A stretch of DNA of 64,000 nt. Source: Synechococcus sp. RCC307. GTDB lineage: Bacteria > Cyanobacteriota > Cyanobacteriia > PCC-6307 > Cyanobiaceae. The position numbers were made by a program, and so were the translations under genes. The stretch covers positions 1,421,105 through 1,485,104 of the forward strand of contig CT978603.1 of assembly GCA_000063525.1 (NCBI GenBank). The letters are read 5' to 3'. This document shows positions 1,922-8,246 of this stretch, piece by piece. Numbering within the stretch: the stretch's first letter is position 1; the number at the start of each line of letters is the position of its first letter. The notes beneath the pieces are model-generated. The model was not told where the DNA came from, made no database searches, and saw nothing but the letters and a program-made list of their open reading frames with translations.

Positions 1922-2305
1922 ATGGCGAAGGGGCTCAGCGACCGCCAGAGACAAATCCTCAGGATCCTTGAGGCGAGCAGCAAGGAGCTGAGCGGCCAAG
2001 AGCTGCACAAATTGGGCAGCGAACTGGGCCAGAGCATGGGCTTGGCCACCGTGTATCGCAACCTGCGGGTGCTGCAACAAGCAGGGCGAGTTCGCTGCCG
2101 TCACCTGCCCAGTGGCGAACTGCTTTACAGCCCACTGGAGCGTGATGTGCACCACCTCACTTGCCTGGAGTGCGGCACCAGCCAGCCACTAACGAGCTGT
2201 CCTGTTGAACAACAAGGGCTCAAGTTGCCCACACCCGAAGGGTTTGAGCCGCTCTTCCACACCCTGGAAGTCTTTGGCTACTGCGCCAAGTGCAAGCCCG
2301 AATGA
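1922..2305 (+). CDS. zur: Fur-family metalloregulator, probably Zur (zinc uptake regulator)
   Basis: A 127-residue DNA-binding repressor. The winged-helix part (about 1-75) carries the Fur-family recognition region GLATVYRNLRVL. The dimerisation part has HHLTCLECG with a first CxxC, and a C-terminal CAKC that completes the structural zinc site. The adjacent palindrome at 2394-2410, placed in front of a His-rich outer-membrane protein, favours zinc sensing. A second Fur-family protein in the window (13763-14224) is coupled to an iron transporter and fits Fur better. Assignment as Zur rather than another Fur paralog is inferred from context. Confidence 0.8.
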   Translation: MAKGLSDRQRQILRILEASSKELSGQELHKLGSELGQSMGLATVYRNLRVLQQAGRVRCRHLPSGELLYSPLERDVHHLTCLECGTSQPLTSCPVEQQGLKLPTPEGFEPLFHTLEVFGYCAKCKPE

Positions 2306-2393
2306 CTAGCAACAGCAGCGCTATTACGTTGGAAGCCAAAGCAGTCAGCCACTAAGGCGAACACGCAGGCAGCCAACGAGCCGACCAATAACG

Positions 2394-2410
2394 AGAATGA
2401 TTATCATTCT
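2394..2410. promoter_or_regulatory. Candidate Zur box: perfect 17-bp palindrome
   Basis: The sequence is AGAATGAT-T-ATCATTCT, with two perfect 8-base arms around one central T. It resembles the TGATAATnATTATCA type of Fur/Zur operator. It ends 12 bases before the GTG start of the His-rich barrel gene and 89 bases after the stop of the Fur-family gene, so repression of the barrel gene is the simplest reading. Confidence 0.7.
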
Positions 2411-2422
2411 TCCAGTGAATCG

Positions 2423-3424
2423 GTGCTTTTCTCCTTTCAGCCTCGCCTGACGAGACACACCGCTCAGGCACTAGGCCTTGCTATGGCCTGCGGATTGGGC
2501 CTTGCAGGGCCAACCACTCTTCAGGCGCATGCCCATGGTGATGGCGAAGGAGAGGAGCTCGAGCCTGGAGAATTCCGCGCCCGGCCGGTCATCACCATCG
2601 AAGGCCATGGCGGCTTTGAGAACAACCTGGAGGGGAGGCCTCAGCACTACGCCATCGATGGCCTGTTCGGCGGTGTCCTGGAATGGGGTCTAGAGAATGG
2701 CGGCAGCTTGGCGATTGAGGCGCAGGTTGGACCGGCTGCCGTCTGGGGAGAAGCCGAGCACTTCTATGGCTTGGTGCACATTGAGGAGCACGAAGACGAT
2801 CATCACGAGGAAGAAGAAGGGCACGATGAACACGCCGAAGAAGAGCACGAAGACCATGGCCACAGCAGTGGCTCCCCCTATCGCCGTACGGACGTGAAGG
2901 GCTACCTGCAAGTGCGCTATGAGCCCAACGAGCAGCTGGCCTTTTCAGCCATGTGGAAGCCTTACTACGTCACGGAAGATCAAGGGGAAGACATCAAAGG
3001 GTTCAAACATGAGATGGAATTTGGGGCCATCTATGCCTTCGGTGATGGTGATGTGAACTTCGCCCTTGGCGATGGACTGGAATCCATCGTTGACGGCATC
3101 TTCATCTCAGCAAAGAACGCCACTGGCTGGGAAAGCGACAACACCTACGTCGGCAACTACACCGACGTGTGGCCTGGCTTTGGCTTCAACTACGACAAGC
3201 TGAATGTCACCCTCTCGGGCGGCCCGCGCTTCTATAGCCCTGGCAGCTACGCCAAATTACCTAGCCGCACCGATTGGGGCGGTGAAATTGCTCTCGAGTA
3301 TCCACTGAGTAAAAACACTGTGTTGTTTGCTCACTGGGAGCCGATGTACAGCACCCAAGGCGGTGAAGGTTGGGGCAAAGGTTTCCAACACCACGTTGGC
3401 AGCGGTGTGACCTTTAGCTTCTGA
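2423..3424 (+). CDS. His-rich outer-membrane beta-barrel protein, candidate zinc-regulated porin
   Basis: A 333-residue exported protein. A signal peptide covers about residues 1-35 (cleavage near LQAHA), and the protein ends in Phe (VTFSF) like outer-membrane barrels. Residues 119-147 are a His/Glu/Asp-rich stretch fit for metal binding. The barrel contains two copies of a module: GPAAV...RTDVKGYLQVRYEP (about 103-168) and GPRF...RTDWGGEIALEYP...HWEP (267-307). The His-rich stretch sits between the GP and RTD elements of copy 1. The GTG start lies 13 bases after the palindrome, which suggests zinc control. A role in zinc capture or passage across the outer membrane is an inference. The next gene encodes a related barrel. 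Confidence 0.75.
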   Translation: MLFSFQPRLTRHTAQALGLAMACGLGLAGPTTLQAHAHGDGEGEELEPGEFRARPVITIEGHGGFENNLEGRPQHYAIDGLFGGVLEWGLENGGSLAIEAQVGPAAVWGEAEHFYGLVHIEEHEDDHHEEEEGHDEHAEEEHEDHGHSSGSPYRRTDVKGYLQVRYEPNEQLAFSAMWKPYYVTEDQGEDIKGFKHEMEFGAIYAFGDGDVNFALGDGLESIVDGIFISAKNATGWESDNTYVGNYTDVWPGFGFNYDKLNVTLSGGPRFYSPGSYAKLPSRTDWGGEIALEYPLSKNTVLFAHWEPMYSTQGGEGWGKGFQHHVGSGVTFSF

Positions 3425-3436
3425 GCCAACCCTCAC

Positions 3437-3463
3437 GGCTAGACGGGGAGACCCCGTCTAGCC
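3437..3463 (+). terminator. Strong hairpin after the His-rich barrel gene
   Basis: A 12-bp perfect stem (GGCTAGACGGGG with CCCCGTCTAGCC) encloses a 3-base loop, starting 12 bases after the TGA stop. No real T-run follows (TCTCGG), so it may act as a transcript-end stabiliser or weak terminator that separates the two barrel genes. Confidence 0.7.
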
Positions 3464-3488
3464 TCTCGGCAACTACCATCCAATTCAG

Positions 3489-4259
3489 GTGCATCGCGCT
3501 CTCGGATTATTTTTGCTCGCGACCACCTCAGTATTCACTGTTCCAGCCAATGCTCAAGAATTAGAAACAACGGGCATTAGTGACGGCTTCTACCTCTATA
3601 CGGAACAAGAAGTTGGATGGTTGAAAGGAGATGCCGAAGCAGCAGTGACATCTGCACGGCTTGGCTATGCAGTGGAAGGCCCTCAACTAACGATTGGATT
3701 CGAACTCGGTCCGCGCTTCATCAGTACGTTTGATTTGCAGAATCGAACTGACTGGAGTGCAAAACTAGAAGGAGCATGGGTTCCGGAAAACACTCCCTTC
3801 GAAATTTACGGTGAATATGAGCCTGCATTAAGCACTGAAACTGACAATAGTGGGCTTTACCAAACAGCCAAATGGGGCCTGGTCATTCCCCTTAGCCCTT
3901 CCAGTCAACCACAATTTGATGTTGGCCAAGGCTTTGCAGATGCTTCGGATGTTTACCTCAAGATTGAGCAAGAAGGTGCCTGGAGTGTTGGTGGACATCA
4001 AGAGTTGATCCTGGCAAGCCCCAGATTGGGATACGGTCTTGAGATTGAACAAGTTGCCTTCGCCCTGGAAGCGGGACCAAGCTTTCGCTGGAGCGATAAC
4101 AGGTCTCCACACACAGACCTGGCGGGCAAAGTCGACTTTCGGATCAGCCCAACAGATCACTATGAGTTATTTGTGGAATACGAACCGACTTACATCTTTC
4201 AAGCTGAACAGCCAGGCCTTGTTCAAATCCTCAAAGGGGGACTGGTCTTCAACTTTTAA
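3489..4259 (+). CDS. Duplicated-module outer-membrane beta-barrel protein
   Basis: A 256-residue exported protein with a signal peptide (about 1-22, cleavage near ANA-QE) and a terminal Phe (LVFNF). The mature part is two tandem copies of roughly 100 residues. Paired landmarks are YLYTEQE/YLKIEQE, ARLGY/PRLGY, ELGPRF/EAGPSF, RTDW/HTDL and GEYEP/VEYEP, offset by about 121 residues. The same module occurs in the upstream His-rich barrel, but here there is no His-rich loop. The gene appears more AT-rich than its neighbours. GTG at 3489 is the only start giving a full signal peptide. The last bases overlap the convergent gene. Function unknown; a porin-like or ligand-binding barrel is inferred. 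Confidence 0.7.
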   Translation: MHRALGLFLLATTSVFTVPANAQELETTGISDGFYLYTEQEVGWLKGDAEAAVTSARLGYAVEGPQLTIGFELGPRFISTFDLQNRTDWSAKLEGAWVPENTPFEIYGEYEPALSTETDNSGLYQTAKWGLVIPLSPSSQPQFDVGQGFADASDVYLKIEQEGAWSVGGHQELILASPRLGYGLEIEQVAFALEAGPSFRWSDNRSPHTDLAGKVDFRISPTDHYELFVEYEPTYIFQAEQPGLVQILKGGLVFNF

Positions 4260-4512: not shown

Positions 4513-4739
4513 TGCTTTCTGAGCATGCGATGCAATTCAGCTTCATCGGAGCAGGGCATCCACCGTCCGTTGTTTTGATGGACAGAAGCACAGCCAAGCT
4601 CAGTGGCACGCTGCTTCGCTTCAGCCTCAGATTTATAAATCCCTGTGCTATGGGCTTGGGCACCCATAGGCAGAACAGCTGGGGCGACAGCAAAGAGGAG
4701 GATGCCGCAACTCAGAGGAGGGGCAAGACGAATCATCAT
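4509..4739 (-). CDS. Small secreted DUF3721-type protein
   Basis: A 76-residue protein with a signal peptide (about 1-28, ending GAQAHS) and a short mature domain with the DUF3721 pattern: AEAKQRATELGC, then H, then GRWMPC. The two cysteines may form a disulfide or bind metal. ATG at 4739 is chosen because it overlaps the TGA of the DUF305 gene as ATGA; the longer open frame upstream lies inside that gene. It is the middle gene of a coupled three-gene operon. The family function is not established; metal handling in the periplasm is inferred from the neighbours. Confidence 0.75.
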   Translation of the reverse strand: MMIRLAPPLSCGILLFAVAPAVLPMGAQAHSTGIYKSEAEAKQRATELGCASVHQNNGRWMPCSDEAELHRMLRKQ

Positions 4740-5488
4740 GAGAGGCGGAACAAGTGGTCGTAGTTGTAATAAGAGGGCTTCGAAAGGCCTCTGGAGGCCA
4801 ACATTCTTCTCAGCAAAATTATCTCCTGACGTTGAGCCAAAATGATGTCCCGAGACAATCGCCTGATCGTTGTATTGCTGGAGCGATCTAACGCCTCGTG
4901 GGCCATCTCTAAGGCACCACCATGGTGATACAACATACCCTCTAAAAACCAATCCACCTGCTCCCCAGAGGCAGGTGGTGTTCCCACCATTTGCATCATC
5001 GCGATCTGCTCATCGCTCATGCGCTGAAGACCTCTCATCGCATCAGGATCACCACCAGGCTTCAGGCTGACCGGATACACAGGAGCCTGGGGATACCAAG
5101 CCTTCCGCCAACGGATCATGGCCTTGATTTCAGTGGCCTGATCGCGCCAGATGCTGTGGGCTAAATGCGCAGGCCCAGGTGCTCCGATTCCAAAAACGTA
5201 TTCGCTCATCCGCAATGCACCGGTGTGGTGCTGATTCATGGCATCAAGCCAACGCAAGTCATAGGTGGCGCCGGCAGGTCCAACGGAATGGTTGTGGCTG
5301 CTGTGATCACCGTGCCCCTCATGGCCTGCGGGCTCGCCTTGGTGATGCTGGTGGTGTTGGTGGTGATCACCATGCCCCTCGTGCATCGGTGCGCTCTCAG
5401 GCATGGCGTGATGCTCATGCCCTTGGTGTTGCGCCGACGCTGGCACCACAGCGGCCAGCACAAGCAATGCCAACAGCAGCTTCGGCAT
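4736..5488 (-). CDS. His-rich secreted DUF305 protein
   Basis: A 250-residue periplasmic protein. A signal peptide (1-20, ASAQ) is followed by a very His-rich segment (about 21-67). The DUF305 core has its two hallmark motifs NQHHTGAL (about 85-92) and YHHGGALEMA (about 204-213), four-helix segments whose Met and His residues can bind metal. Members often occur with copper resistance genes. First gene of a minus-strand operon and divergent from a MerR regulator, whose candidate operator lies in its promoter spacer. A role in copper or other soft-metal binding is inferred. Confidence 0.85.
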   Translation of the reverse strand: MPKLLLALLVLAAVVPASAQHQGHEHHAMPESAPMHEGHGDHHQHHQHHQGEPAGHEGHGDHSSHNHSVGPAGATYDLRWLDAMNQHHTGALRMSEYVFGIGAPGPAHLAHSIWRDQATEIKAMIRWRKAWYPQAPVYPVSLKPGGDPDAMRGLQRMSDEQIAMMQMVGTPPASGEQVDWFLEGMLYHHGGALEMAHEALDRSSNTTIRRLSRDIILAQRQEIILLRRMLASRGLSKPSYYNYDHLFRLS

Positions 5489-5510
5489 CTTTTTTGCTGA
5501 GAATATTTAT

Positions 5511-5541
5511 ATGATCAGGTCTCCAGTAAGTGGAGAGTCAA
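5511..5541 (-). promoter_or_regulatory. MerR-type promoter/operator of the DUF305 operon
   Basis: On the minus strand a -35 TTGACT (5541-5536) and a -10-like GATCAT (5516-5511) are separated by 19 bp. This is the over-long spacer typical of MerR-activated promoters. The spacer region holds the inverted repeat TCTCCA-N5-TGGAGA (5520-5536). The arrangement, next to a divergent merR gene, predicts metal-induced transcription of the DUF305-DUF3721-PepSY cassette and possibly autoregulation of merR. Confidence 0.6.
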
Positions 5542-5544
5542 GCC

Positions 5545-5940
5545 GTGGACGACTCCAGCGAATGCATCCGCATTGGCGCTGTGGCTCAGCAGGCTGGAAT
5601 GAGCATTAAAACGATTCGCTTCTACAGCGACGAGGGCCTTGTTCCCGTAGCTGGCCGAACCCAAGGGGGATACAGGCTTTATCACCAGCACGTGGTTGAG
5701 GAACTCCAGCTCATCCAAAACCTGAAAGGTCTCGGGCTTCCGCTAGGCACCATTCGCAGTTATTTGGCTGCGAAACGCGAGGGGGCTTGCCACTGCGAGC
5801 AGCTGAAGCAATCCATGCGTGAACAGAAACAGGCCATTCATCAAAGAATTGCTGTTCTGCAGAACCTTCAGCAAGAACTCAGCGAAACAATGGAGGGCTG
5901 GGTGAACTGCGGCGGCCGTTTAGACGCCACACTGATGTGA
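5545..5940 (+). CDS. MerR-family metal-responsive regulator
   Basis: A 131-residue activator. The N-terminal winged helix carries IGAVAQQAGMSIKTIRFYSDEGL and GGYRLY. A long coiled coil (about 80-115) follows, with metal-site candidates CHCEQL at its start and NCGG at the end, resembling the HCE cysteine and C-terminal loop of MerR/PbrR/CadR-type sensors. I chose GTG 5545 over GTG 5530 because GGAGAG at 5532-5537 gives a good Shine-Dalgarno site 7 bases upstream, and because the candidate operator covers 5530. It is followed 12 bases later by the COG0523 GTPase gene. The metal sensed is not determined. Confidence 0.85.
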   Translation: MDDSSECIRIGAVAQQAGMSIKTIRFYSDEGLVPVAGRTQGGYRLYHQHVVEELQLIQNLKGLGLPLGTIRSYLAAKREGACHCEQLKQSMREQKQAIHQRIAVLQNLQQELSETMEGWVNCGGRLDATLM

Positions 5941-5952
5941 GAACCGTTCTCG

Positions 5953-7026
5953 GTGACCTTGACTTCGACTCACAGCCATAGCCCTGTTCCTGTCACGATC
6001 CTGACGGGATTTCTAGGGGCAGGTAAAACGACCCTCTTGAACCACATCCTGGCCAATCAGGAGGGACTAAAAACGGCCGTTCTGGTGAACGAGTTCGGCG
6101 AGATCGGTATTGATAACGAGCTGATCATCAGCACCAGTGAAGACATGGTTGAGCTGAGCAATGGCTGCATCTGCTGCACGATCAACGACGAACTGCTCAA
6201 CACCGTTTTTAAGGTGCTGGACCGGCCGGAGCCGCTCGACTACTTGGTGGTGGAAACAACCGGACTTGCTGATCCCCTGCCGGTGGCAATGACGTTTCTA
6301 GGCAGTGATCTGCGCAATGAAACGCGCCTCGATTCGATCATCACCGTGATTGATGCCGAGAATTTTGGCGAGGAGATCCTCGATACCGAGGTGGGCCGGG
6401 CTCAGGTGCTCTACGGCGACATCTTGATGCTGAACAAAACCGATCTGGTCTCCGCTGAGCGCGTCAAGGAACTGGAGGGCCAGCTGAGCGAGATCAAAAC
6501 CGACGCCCGCTTTTTGCATGCCGTAAAAGGGGAGGTAGCCCTGCCCCTGCTTCTGAGCGTGGGGTTATTTGAATCCGACCGCGTGGTGCGTGAACAAGCC
6601 GCAGCCGATGACGGCCACGACCACAGCCATTGCGATCACGACCATGGCCACTGTGAGCACGATCACGACCATGGCCACAGCCATCACCACCATCACCACG
6701 ACCACAGCCACGACGGCTCAATCGAAGGCTTCACCTCACTCTCATTCCGTTCCGACAAACCGATGGGGCTGAGGAAGTTTCAGAACTTCCTCGACAACCA
6801 ACTACCGGCGTCGGTGTTTCGCTCAAAAGGGATCCTCTGGTTCAACGAAAGCGAGCGGCGCCATGTGTTCCACCTGGCGGGCAAACGTTTCTCAATCGAT
6901 GACACCGATTGGGATGGCCCGCGCAGCAACCAACTGGTGCTGATCGGCCGCGATCTCGACCACGACAAGCTCAAGCAGCAACTTCAGGCTTGCTTAGCCC
7001 CTGATGCCGGCCGCGGATTCTCCTAA
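5953..7026 (+). CDS. COG0523/CobW-family GTPase metallochaperone
   Basis: A 357-residue G3E GTPase. Walker A GFLGAGKTT is at 19-27, the metal-binding GCICC motif at 71-75 and the guanine-specificity NKTD at 161-164. A His/Asp-rich linker (221-254) has runs of His that can bind zinc or cobalt, and a CobW C-terminal domain follows (about 258-350). The GCICC motif and His-rich linker match the zinc-chaperone branch (ZNG1/YeiR/YciC-like) better than cobalamin CobW. It follows merR by 12 bases and its TAA overlaps the ATG of the ClC gene. GTG 5953 is used; TTG 5959 is possible. Confidence 0.85.
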   Translation: MTLTSTHSHSPVPVTILTGFLGAGKTTLLNHILANQEGLKTAVLVNEFGEIGIDNELIISTSEDMVELSNGCICCTINDELLNTVFKVLDRPEPLDYLVVETTGLADPLPVAMTFLGSDLRNETRLDSIITVIDAENFGEEILDTEVGRAQVLYGDILMLNKTDLVSAERVKELEGQLSEIKTDARFLHAVKGEVALPLLLSVGLFESDRVVREQAAADDGHDHSHCDHDHGHCEHDHDHGHSHHHHHHDHSHDGSIEGFTSLSFRSDKPMGLRKFQNFLDNQLPASVFRSKGILWFNESERRHVFHLAGKRFSIDDTDWDGPRSNQLVLIGRDLDHDKLKQQLQACLAPDAGRGFS

Positions 7027-8246
7027 TGCTGGCTGAGGCGTTCAGCACCAGCCTCACCAGTGCCCTGATCGGAGCGGTCGCTGGCGCCATGGGCGCCCTG
7101 CTGATGGCTTTGATCAGCTGGCTGATCGCCATGGGATGGGGTGATGCCGTGCTGCTGGGGCAGCCAGCCAATGGTCCTCAGCTGCTGCAGCTGCTGCTGC
7201 CACTGGGAGCTGGGCTTGCCATTGGCCTATTGCGCCAACGCGGCGCTGACCCCCTACCCGAGCTGCACAGCACCATCGAAGAGCTGCATGAACACGGCGA
7301 ACACAAGCTGCAACCCCGCAGCAGCCATTGGCTCCTCGGACTTCTGGCCCTGGTGGGTGGCGGCAGCTTGGGGCCAGAAGCCCTGCTCAGCCGCTGTCTG
7401 GCTGAATGGAGCATTGGGCTGTCGCGCTGGGGCTGGTTCAAAGCGATTCCCTGGCGTGGCGCTTCAGCCATCAGTGGCTCTTTGGGGCTCTTTGGCTTGC
7501 CCTTGGTGGGTGGTGTTGCCCTAGCCGAGCGTCCTGATCGCCCCTTACCCGCTGGCCTCTGGCGCTGGCTGCCCGGTGTGGTGAGCGGCATCGCAGGCTT
7601 TGCGGTGTTTCAAGGCTTCAGCCGCTTTGGCGATGGCGAGCAAACCGTTCGCTACGTCTGGCCCCACAGCCTTGCGGAAATCAGCCAAAACCTTGTCTGG
7701 GCACTCCTCCTGGGCCTGATCGGAGGCGTGCTTGGGCTGCTGTTTCTGGGACTACGACGCCACTTGAGCCGAACTCTCAAGCGCTGGAATCCGTTGAGCC
7801 AAGCCTTGCTCACAGGAGGAGTACTCGCAGCGATGAGCCAACTCCAGCCCCTGGCTCTGATGTCAGGTGAACTCCAAATCACCCCAATGCTGCAAGGGGC
7901 TCTGGTCACGAATGGACACACCCTGATGCTGCTGGGACTCCTAAAGCTGGGGCTCTGCGCCCTTTGCCTCAGCAGCGGCTGGATTGGCGGTCAATTTTTT
8001 CCACTGATTTTTGGCGCCAGCGCGATCGGCATGGGGCTGGGTGAGCTCTGGCCGCAAGTGGTGCCAGGGCAAGTCGCTGTCAGCAGCCTCACCGCCGCCA
8101 TTCAAAGCGCCGTGCTGGGCCAAGCCCTCCTGCCGCTCCTGATCACGGCTGCTGTGCTGAAGGGCCATGCCCTTGCGGGGGCCCTGATCGGCAGCGTGAT
8201 GGGGCTCGGGGTGCGCCAGATCACAAATGCCAAAAAACGCGACTAG
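7026..8246 (+). CDS. ClC-family chloride channel/antiporter-like membrane protein
   Basis: A 406-residue integral membrane protein with about ten hydrophobic helices. It has ClC-like motifs: GGGSLGPEALL (about 111-121) at the place of the G(K/R)EGP filter sequence, and GWIGGQFFPLIFG near 318-330 for the GxFxP segment. The glutamate follows GP rather than preceding it, as in the YfeO-like bacterial branch, so gating may differ from classic ClC proteins. The ATG shares one base with the TAA of the COG0523 gene, so the two are co-translated. The transported ion is not shown by the sequence. Confidence 0.8.
   Translation: MLAEAFSTSLTSALIGAVAGAMGALLMALISWLIAMGWGDAVLLGQPANGPQLLQLLLPLGAGLAIGLLRQRGADPLPELHSTIEELHEHGEHKLQPRSSHWLLGLLALVGGGSLGPEALLSRCLAEWSIGLSRWGWFKAIPWRGASAISGSLGLFGLPLVGGVALAERPDRPLPAGLWRWLPGVVSGIAGFAVFQGFSRFGDGEQTVRYVWPHSLAEISQNLVWALLLGLIGGVLGLLFLGLRRHLSRTLKRWNPLSQALLTGGVLAAMSQLQPLALMSGELQITPMLQGALVTNGHTLMLLGLLKLGLCALCLSSGWIGGQFFPLIFGASAIGMGLGELWPQVVPGQVAVSSLTAAIQSAVLGQALLPLLITAAVLKGHALAGALIGSVMGLGVRQITNAKKRD

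Follow-up and report, generated by a model that had tools for sequence, protein, structure and literature searches.

A candidate Zur-controlled zinc channel in picocyanobacteria: a predicted duplicated-module outer-membrane barrel with a histidine-rich external loop

Entry of zinc through the outer membrane under the control of Zur has been described for ZnuD-type TonB receptors, such as Alr3242 and Alr4028-4029 of Anabaena (PMC10957091). These receptors combine a 22-strand barrel with a plug domain. For manganese, a different solution is found in MnoP of Bradyrhizobium japonicum, which functions independently of TonB and is regulated by a Fur-family protein. MnoP (Hohle et al. 2011) is an outer-membrane porin devoted to one divalent metal and is called distant from other porins (PMC6011978). 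A third point of comparison is SYNW0972 of Synechococcus sp. WH8102, an "uncharacterized" protein published as Zur-repressed and encoded directly 3' of znuA (synw0971), under a single Zur box; synw0968-0973 are raised in a zur mutant, and synw0971 and synw0972 are raised when no zinc is added (PMC9337993). In the text searched, SYNW0972 is given no barrel, loop or outer-membrane role.

Here we analyze a 64-kb stretch of DNA (the window; G000, C1:1421105-1485104) from a complete 2.22-Mb Cyanobiaceae genome, in which two adjacent genes downstream of zur encode OMP1 (GTG start, 333 aa) and OMP2 (GTG start, 256 aa; Table 1). The two reading frames are those delimited in a first-pass annotation made from the sequence alone. 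Both proteins start with a signal peptide, recognized by inspection, and end in Phe. Comparisons were made with a family sample of 121 Cyanobiaceae genomes and a wider sample of 292 cyanobacterial genomes; G and L numbers below denote genomes and loci. The reading that we favor, with moderate confidence, is that OMP1 is a Zur-controlled, TonB-independent outer-membrane channel with an external metal-gathering loop, through which zinc would pass.

Table 1. Features of the zur-OMP1-OMP2 region in window coordinates.
Feature	Position	Strand	Basis
zur, Fur-family regulator	1922..2305	+	PF01475 4.2e-16; phmmer 1.3e-41 to PDB 7ne9
znuC remnant, 17 codons then stop (deletion scar)	2302..2355	+	2291-2352 92% identical to L023 1262-1323
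Zur box CGAGAATGATTATCATTCTTC, once upstream of znuA	2392..2412	+	25.6 bits; flanking 27 bp match znuA box region of L023
OMP1, signal peptide and predicted 12-strand barrel (two six-strand modules), putatively Zur-box controlled	2423..3424	+	sequence, AlphaFold2, half comparison
OMP1 module copy 1: predicted strands 1-6, residues ~50-206, His loop included	2570..3040	+	AlphaFold2 strand list; half-to-half comparison
OMP1 His/Asp/Glu-rich loop, residues ~116-154, strands 3-4, predicted extracellular	2768..2884	+	AlphaFold2, composition
OMP1 module copy 2: conserved periplasmic link GDGDVNFALGDGLE and predicted strands 7-12	3041..3421	+	AlphaFold2, half comparison; PF24653 0.0017
Hairpin after OMP1, 12-bp stem, probable transcript end	3436..3463	+	fold -31.5 kcal/mol (intergenic stretch)
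OMP2, signal peptide and predicted 12-strand barrel, two modules, without His loop or lumenal His	3489..4259	+	PF24653 2.3e-13; pLDDT mean 83; halves E 6.1e-13
COG0523/CobW-type GTPase, His-rich loop, same zinc island	5953..7026	+	PF02492 2.8e-57; ZigA model 3.2e-61, below cut-off

The regulatory context ties OMP1 to zinc. Among solved structures, the one closest to the Zur of the window is 7NE9, which is WH8102 Zur (PMC9337993). A scan with a matrix derived from the boxes that precede znuA at other loci finds a single strong site in the 64 kb, a near-perfect box that ends 10 bp before OMP1; the next independent site scores 7.3 bits. OMP1 thus carries in its promoter the box that marks members of the Zur regulon. 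The genome G070, whose Zur is 98% identical to that of WH8102, has znuB and znuC on the minus strand and znuA and OMP1 on the plus strand, which is the order described for synw0969-0972, and we therefore assign SYNW0972 as the OMP1 ortholog of WH8102 by synteny.

Of the 121 family genomes, 36 contain OMP1. In 33 of them the gene comes immediately after the same znuA, in the same orientation, as judged by comparing adjacency by hand. The three exceptions are the window itself, from which znuCBA has been deleted, the Prochlorococcus-like L054, where OMP1 stands alone behind its own Zur box (18.0 bits), and one weak match that is really OMP2. L020 likewise has a solitary OMP1 preceded by its own box (22.8 bits). 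No relative of OMP1 outside Cyanobiaceae was found among the 292 cyanobacterial genomes sampled. The first-pass annotation had linked OMP1 to zinc from the composition of a loop; the Zur box, the neighboring zur gene, the strict linkage to znuA in relatives and the published regulation of the syntenic SYNW0972 (PMC9337993) strengthen that link considerably. The same evidence bears on the idea that OMP1 exports or sheds zinc as a means of detoxification. Metal-export proteins also carry His-rich loops, but a Zur box together with induction at low zinc, as seen for the WH8102 counterpart (PMC9337993), is the opposite of an export pattern, and we regard this idea as highly improbable.

At 3730-4125 of L063 (G010:C10:30500-38500), a host reading frame contains only the second OMP1 module (profile positions 189-321) and could be a half-barrel gene or a truncated copy. 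Many small-genome relatives give ZnuA matches confined to the C-terminal part (e.g., G050:C1:1356735-1357316 and G022:C1:847100-847681), and the frames that contain these matches are about 500 aa or longer, which suggests a long ZnuA extension or insert.

In the window genome, OMP1 has apparently become a direct target of Zur through a deletion. In L005, L006 and L023, zur and OMP1 are separated by znuC-znuB-znuA. The segment 2291-2352 of the window shares 92% identity with the junction of zur and znuC in the close relative L023 (1262-1323) and has a stop after 17 codons; the 27 bp at 2385-2411 share 96% identity with the region of the znuA box in L023. Alignment of 2302-2412 with L023 1262-2833 indicates that the window lost the greater part of znuC together with the whole of znuB, and that znuA went separately, while the znuC stub and the Zur box were kept. 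A search of the window genome for the deleted type of znuA returned only paralogs of 24-39% identity. A second ZnuABC is encoded about 2-4 kb before the window start (L027 6415-9007, minus strand; syntenic in G043 and G012), with a poly-His loop in its ZnuA and an ATPase ending in HSHHH. Divergent from it (L027 9013-11771, plus strand) are genes for an ArsP-type permease, a DUF1980 protein and a 450-aa protein that seem to belong to the same metal island. A dN/dS of about 0.08-0.09 against L004, a comparison that also spans the time before the deletion, indicates that OMP1 has been kept under constraint. The same-genus relative L052 (G012:C6:44000-53000) has at 4938-5698 a truncated znuC fused to the C-terminal portion of OMP2, and lacks znuB, znuA and OMP1; this is a second, different collapse of the zur-znu-OMP locus, unless it is an assembly fault.

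Both OMP1 and OMP2 are built from a duplicated module. In profile-profile comparisons, the two halves match each other with E-values of 4.7e-8 in OMP1 and 6.1e-13 in OMP2, and cross-comparisons between the proteins give 3e-11 (second halves) and 1.5e-8, with the weakest pair being the two first halves (E = 0.01). None of 60 alternation-preserving shuffles reached the observed score in any of the half comparisons. The proposal of four module copies lying side by side, two per protein, is thereby borne out. The sequence motif originally given for the module applies less evenly, because copy 1 of OMP1 has diverged from it (GPAAVW...RRTD...WKPYY), although the module is duplicated in both proteins. 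AlphaFold2 produces the expected barrel for both, each with 12 strands (OMP1, 20 sequences, pTM 0.69; OMP2, 13 sequences, pTM 0.77), of which strands 1-6 belong to module 1 and strands 7-12 to module 2; pLDDT values are mostly 80-93 in the strand blocks. Together with the signal peptides, the even number of amphipathic strands and the C-terminal aromatic residue, a Phe that is invariant in OMP1, these models suggest that OMP1 and OMP2 are paralogous outer-membrane proteins, each a predicted 12-strand barrel of two six-strand modules.

Among the matches listed by VIA-align, the structural neighbors of OMP1 are 12-strand autotransporter domains (Z 17-19.5), the COG4313 channel 4rl8 (Z 17.5), KdgM and NanC; those listed for OMP2 are similar. 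As these are generic 12-strand barrels, the fold gives no substrate. A role as an autotransporter translocator, the top structural match, was discarded, since only about 15 residues separate the signal peptide of OMP1 from strand 1, leaving no room for an N-terminal passenger domain. No solved structure related to OMP1 by sequence was found, and weak Pfam matches to ZIP and ZrgA were set aside because they come from the His-rich stretch. The presence of porin-like channels among the best listed matches (4rl8, KdgM, NanC) would also suit a porin for general or other solutes that merely belongs to the zinc regulon, for example by raising overall permeability or by passing a zinc-ligand complex, and zinc in seawater is indeed largely ligand-bound. 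Such a porin would not be expected to show the obligate pairing with znuA, the His/acid loop present in all orthologs or the invariant lumenal His described below, and we consider it rather improbable.

The candidate channel function is suggested primarily by the predicted lumen. With strand faces assigned by hydrophobicity and strand alternation, lumen-facing positions of OMP1 are more conserved than lipid-facing ones (mean entropy 0.79 versus 1.07 bits). The invariant residues predicted to face the lumen include E60, H62, E66, H75, D79, D157, D248, R269, R282, D284, H304 and H324, among them all four invariant strand His (H62, H75, H304 and H324). These His are located on strands 1, 2, 11 and 12, which become neighbors once the barrel closes. 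A flat-sheet estimate places E60, H62, D79 and H324 each within about 6-7 Å (CA) of a neighbor, with an assumed closure register; the register of strands 12/1 alters these distances. OMP1 may therefore contain a lumenal cluster of His and acidic ligands, and it is this predicted lining that points to metal-selective conduction.

The most variable part of OMP1 is its His-rich loop, which was correctly placed between the GP and RTD elements of module copy 1. It contains 9 His and 16 Asp/Glu in 38 residues (binomial P ~5e-7 at the His frequency of the window) and is disordered in the AlphaFold2 model (pLDDT ~30), whereas the counterpart loop of module 2 (strands 9-10) has no His. Because the strand number is even and the C-terminus periplasmic, barrel topology predicts that the strand 3-4 loop is on the outer face, as had been proposed from counting strands. 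Across orthologs the loop is hypervariable, 20-106 residues long, with abundant His and acids in every case. It is a tandem repeat in WH7803 (L022), and five orthologs have a short loop with only 3 His. This range and the tandem repeat fit the suggested origin by loop expansion.

These features could also be read as those of a surface zinc trap or store, a buffer whose barrel anchors the loop without conducting, and in favor of this the loop is the part that varies and expands, reaching 106 residues and 35 His in WH7803; free Zn2+ could then enter through general porins. Invariance is, however, concentrated in the predicted lumen rather than in the loop, which retains only 3 His in five orthologs, and while excess zinc should induce a store, it is low zinc that raises expression of the WH8102 counterpart (PMC9337993). 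A store that does not conduct is thus unlikely in our view. The term surface zinc trap, with which the loop was first described, is supported as far as zinc is concerned, but trapping is probably only part of the function, given that what is invariant in the protein is the predicted lining of the lumen, and this suggests a channel.

As a candidate channel, OMP1 differs from the systems described above. It was rejected as a TonB-dependent receptor, having 12 strands instead of 22 and no Pfam match to the plug domain PF07715, which is absent from the whole window genome. The plug domain occurs in 12 of the 121 family genomes, none of which holds OMP1 (P 0.011, ignoring phylogeny). Most of the sampled family genomes, including that of the window, thus lack the textbook zinc route. 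MnoP, which is likened to OMP1 by description, differs in its metal, and SYNW0972 differs in context in that znuCBA is still next to it.

OMP2 probably assists in the same zinc response as an accessory barrel, with a role less clear than that of OMP1. It contains neither the invariant His nor the His loop of OMP1, from which it is separated in the window by a hairpin; hairpins likewise follow OMP1 in L004, L005, L006 and L022. Orthologs occupy the corresponding position in L005, L006 and G043, with a 107-residue C-terminal part in G012. In G018, OMP2 is the only gene separating zur from the COG0523 gene and has a weaker Zur box (14.75 bits) in front of it. The COG0523 GTPase gene is syntenic in L005, L006, L051, L052 and L053; its product has 18 His in a 40-residue stretch, and a gene for a ClC-type channel (7026-8246) follows, in the same order in several relatives. 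A His-rich DUF305 protein (CopM-like, below cut-off) adjoining a MerR-family regulator is encoded at 4736-5488 (minus strand) and 5530-5940 (plus strand); these genes, absent at the corresponding place in L005 and L006, are possibly a separate metal-response pair.

The module itself is shared with cyanophages. OMP2 matches the family PF24653 (Phage_OMP; phrog_417) with 50.9 bits in two stretches, above the curated cut-off of 27 bits, and each half matches independently. OMP1 stays below the cut-off (14.9 bits), with a weak match in its second half, but some orthologs exceed it (G110, 33.9; G033, 31.8). When predicted cyanophage modules, about 120 aa long, are superposed on half of OMP2, the rmsd is 2.0-2.2 over 102-104 columns. 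The phage proteins seen are single modules, whereas OMP1 and OMP2 have two fused modules that form a whole predicted barrel, with the His loop added in OMP1. A phage origin of the pair was rejected: tblastn against phages gave nothing for OMP1 and only weak matches for OMP2 (E 0.05-0.08), and no relatives of either protein were found in viral contigs, which makes the link remote. In Synechococcus phage ACG-2014f (L055, KJ019097.1; 3890-4297), OMP2 weakly matches a hypothetical gene flanked by head and tail structural genes. A host genome (L064, G073:C1:129500-136000; ~3010-3370) has a single cyanophage-type module that is interrupted by two in-frame TAG codons and is probably a phage gene in decay. 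The initial view that the pair had not been described is consequently only partly right, since the module is already in Pfam and PHROGs as a cyanophage family, and SYNW0972, the OMP1 counterpart in WH8102, has been published as an uncharacterized Zur-regulated gene.

We propose the following model for zinc entry through OMP1. At low zinc, Zur would leave its box and OMP1 would be transcribed, a step for which the box, the neighboring zur gene and their conservation are seen here and the regulation of the syntenic WH8102 gene has been published (PMC9337993). The predicted 12-strand barrel of two duplicated six-strand modules would insert into the outer membrane, where its flexible His/Asp/Glu loop may raise the local zinc concentration at the pore mouth. 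Zinc would then pass H62, H75, H304, H324, E60, E66 and D79, mostly on strands 11-12-1-2, to the periplasm, to be taken over by ZnuA. In the window genome, where the dedicated znuCBA genes are gone, the second ZnuABC would have to serve.

More tentatively, and with slightly less than even confidence, we suggest that OMP1 represents an undescribed class of TonB-independent, Zur-controlled zinc channels in marine and freshwater picocyanobacteria, in which a His/acid bait loop would lead to an invariant lumenal His/acid ladder within a 12-strand barrel of two fused half-barrel modules shared with cyanophages. The literature searched yielded no description of outer-membrane zinc passage in marine picocyanobacteria, although a genome-mining paper from 2012 may mention the gene. 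The sharing of a half-barrel module between hosts and phages hints at gene exchange. Marine picocyanobacteria grow at picomolar zinc, and OMP1 offers a specific, testable gene for zinc entry, with SYNW0972 as a mutant-ready homolog.
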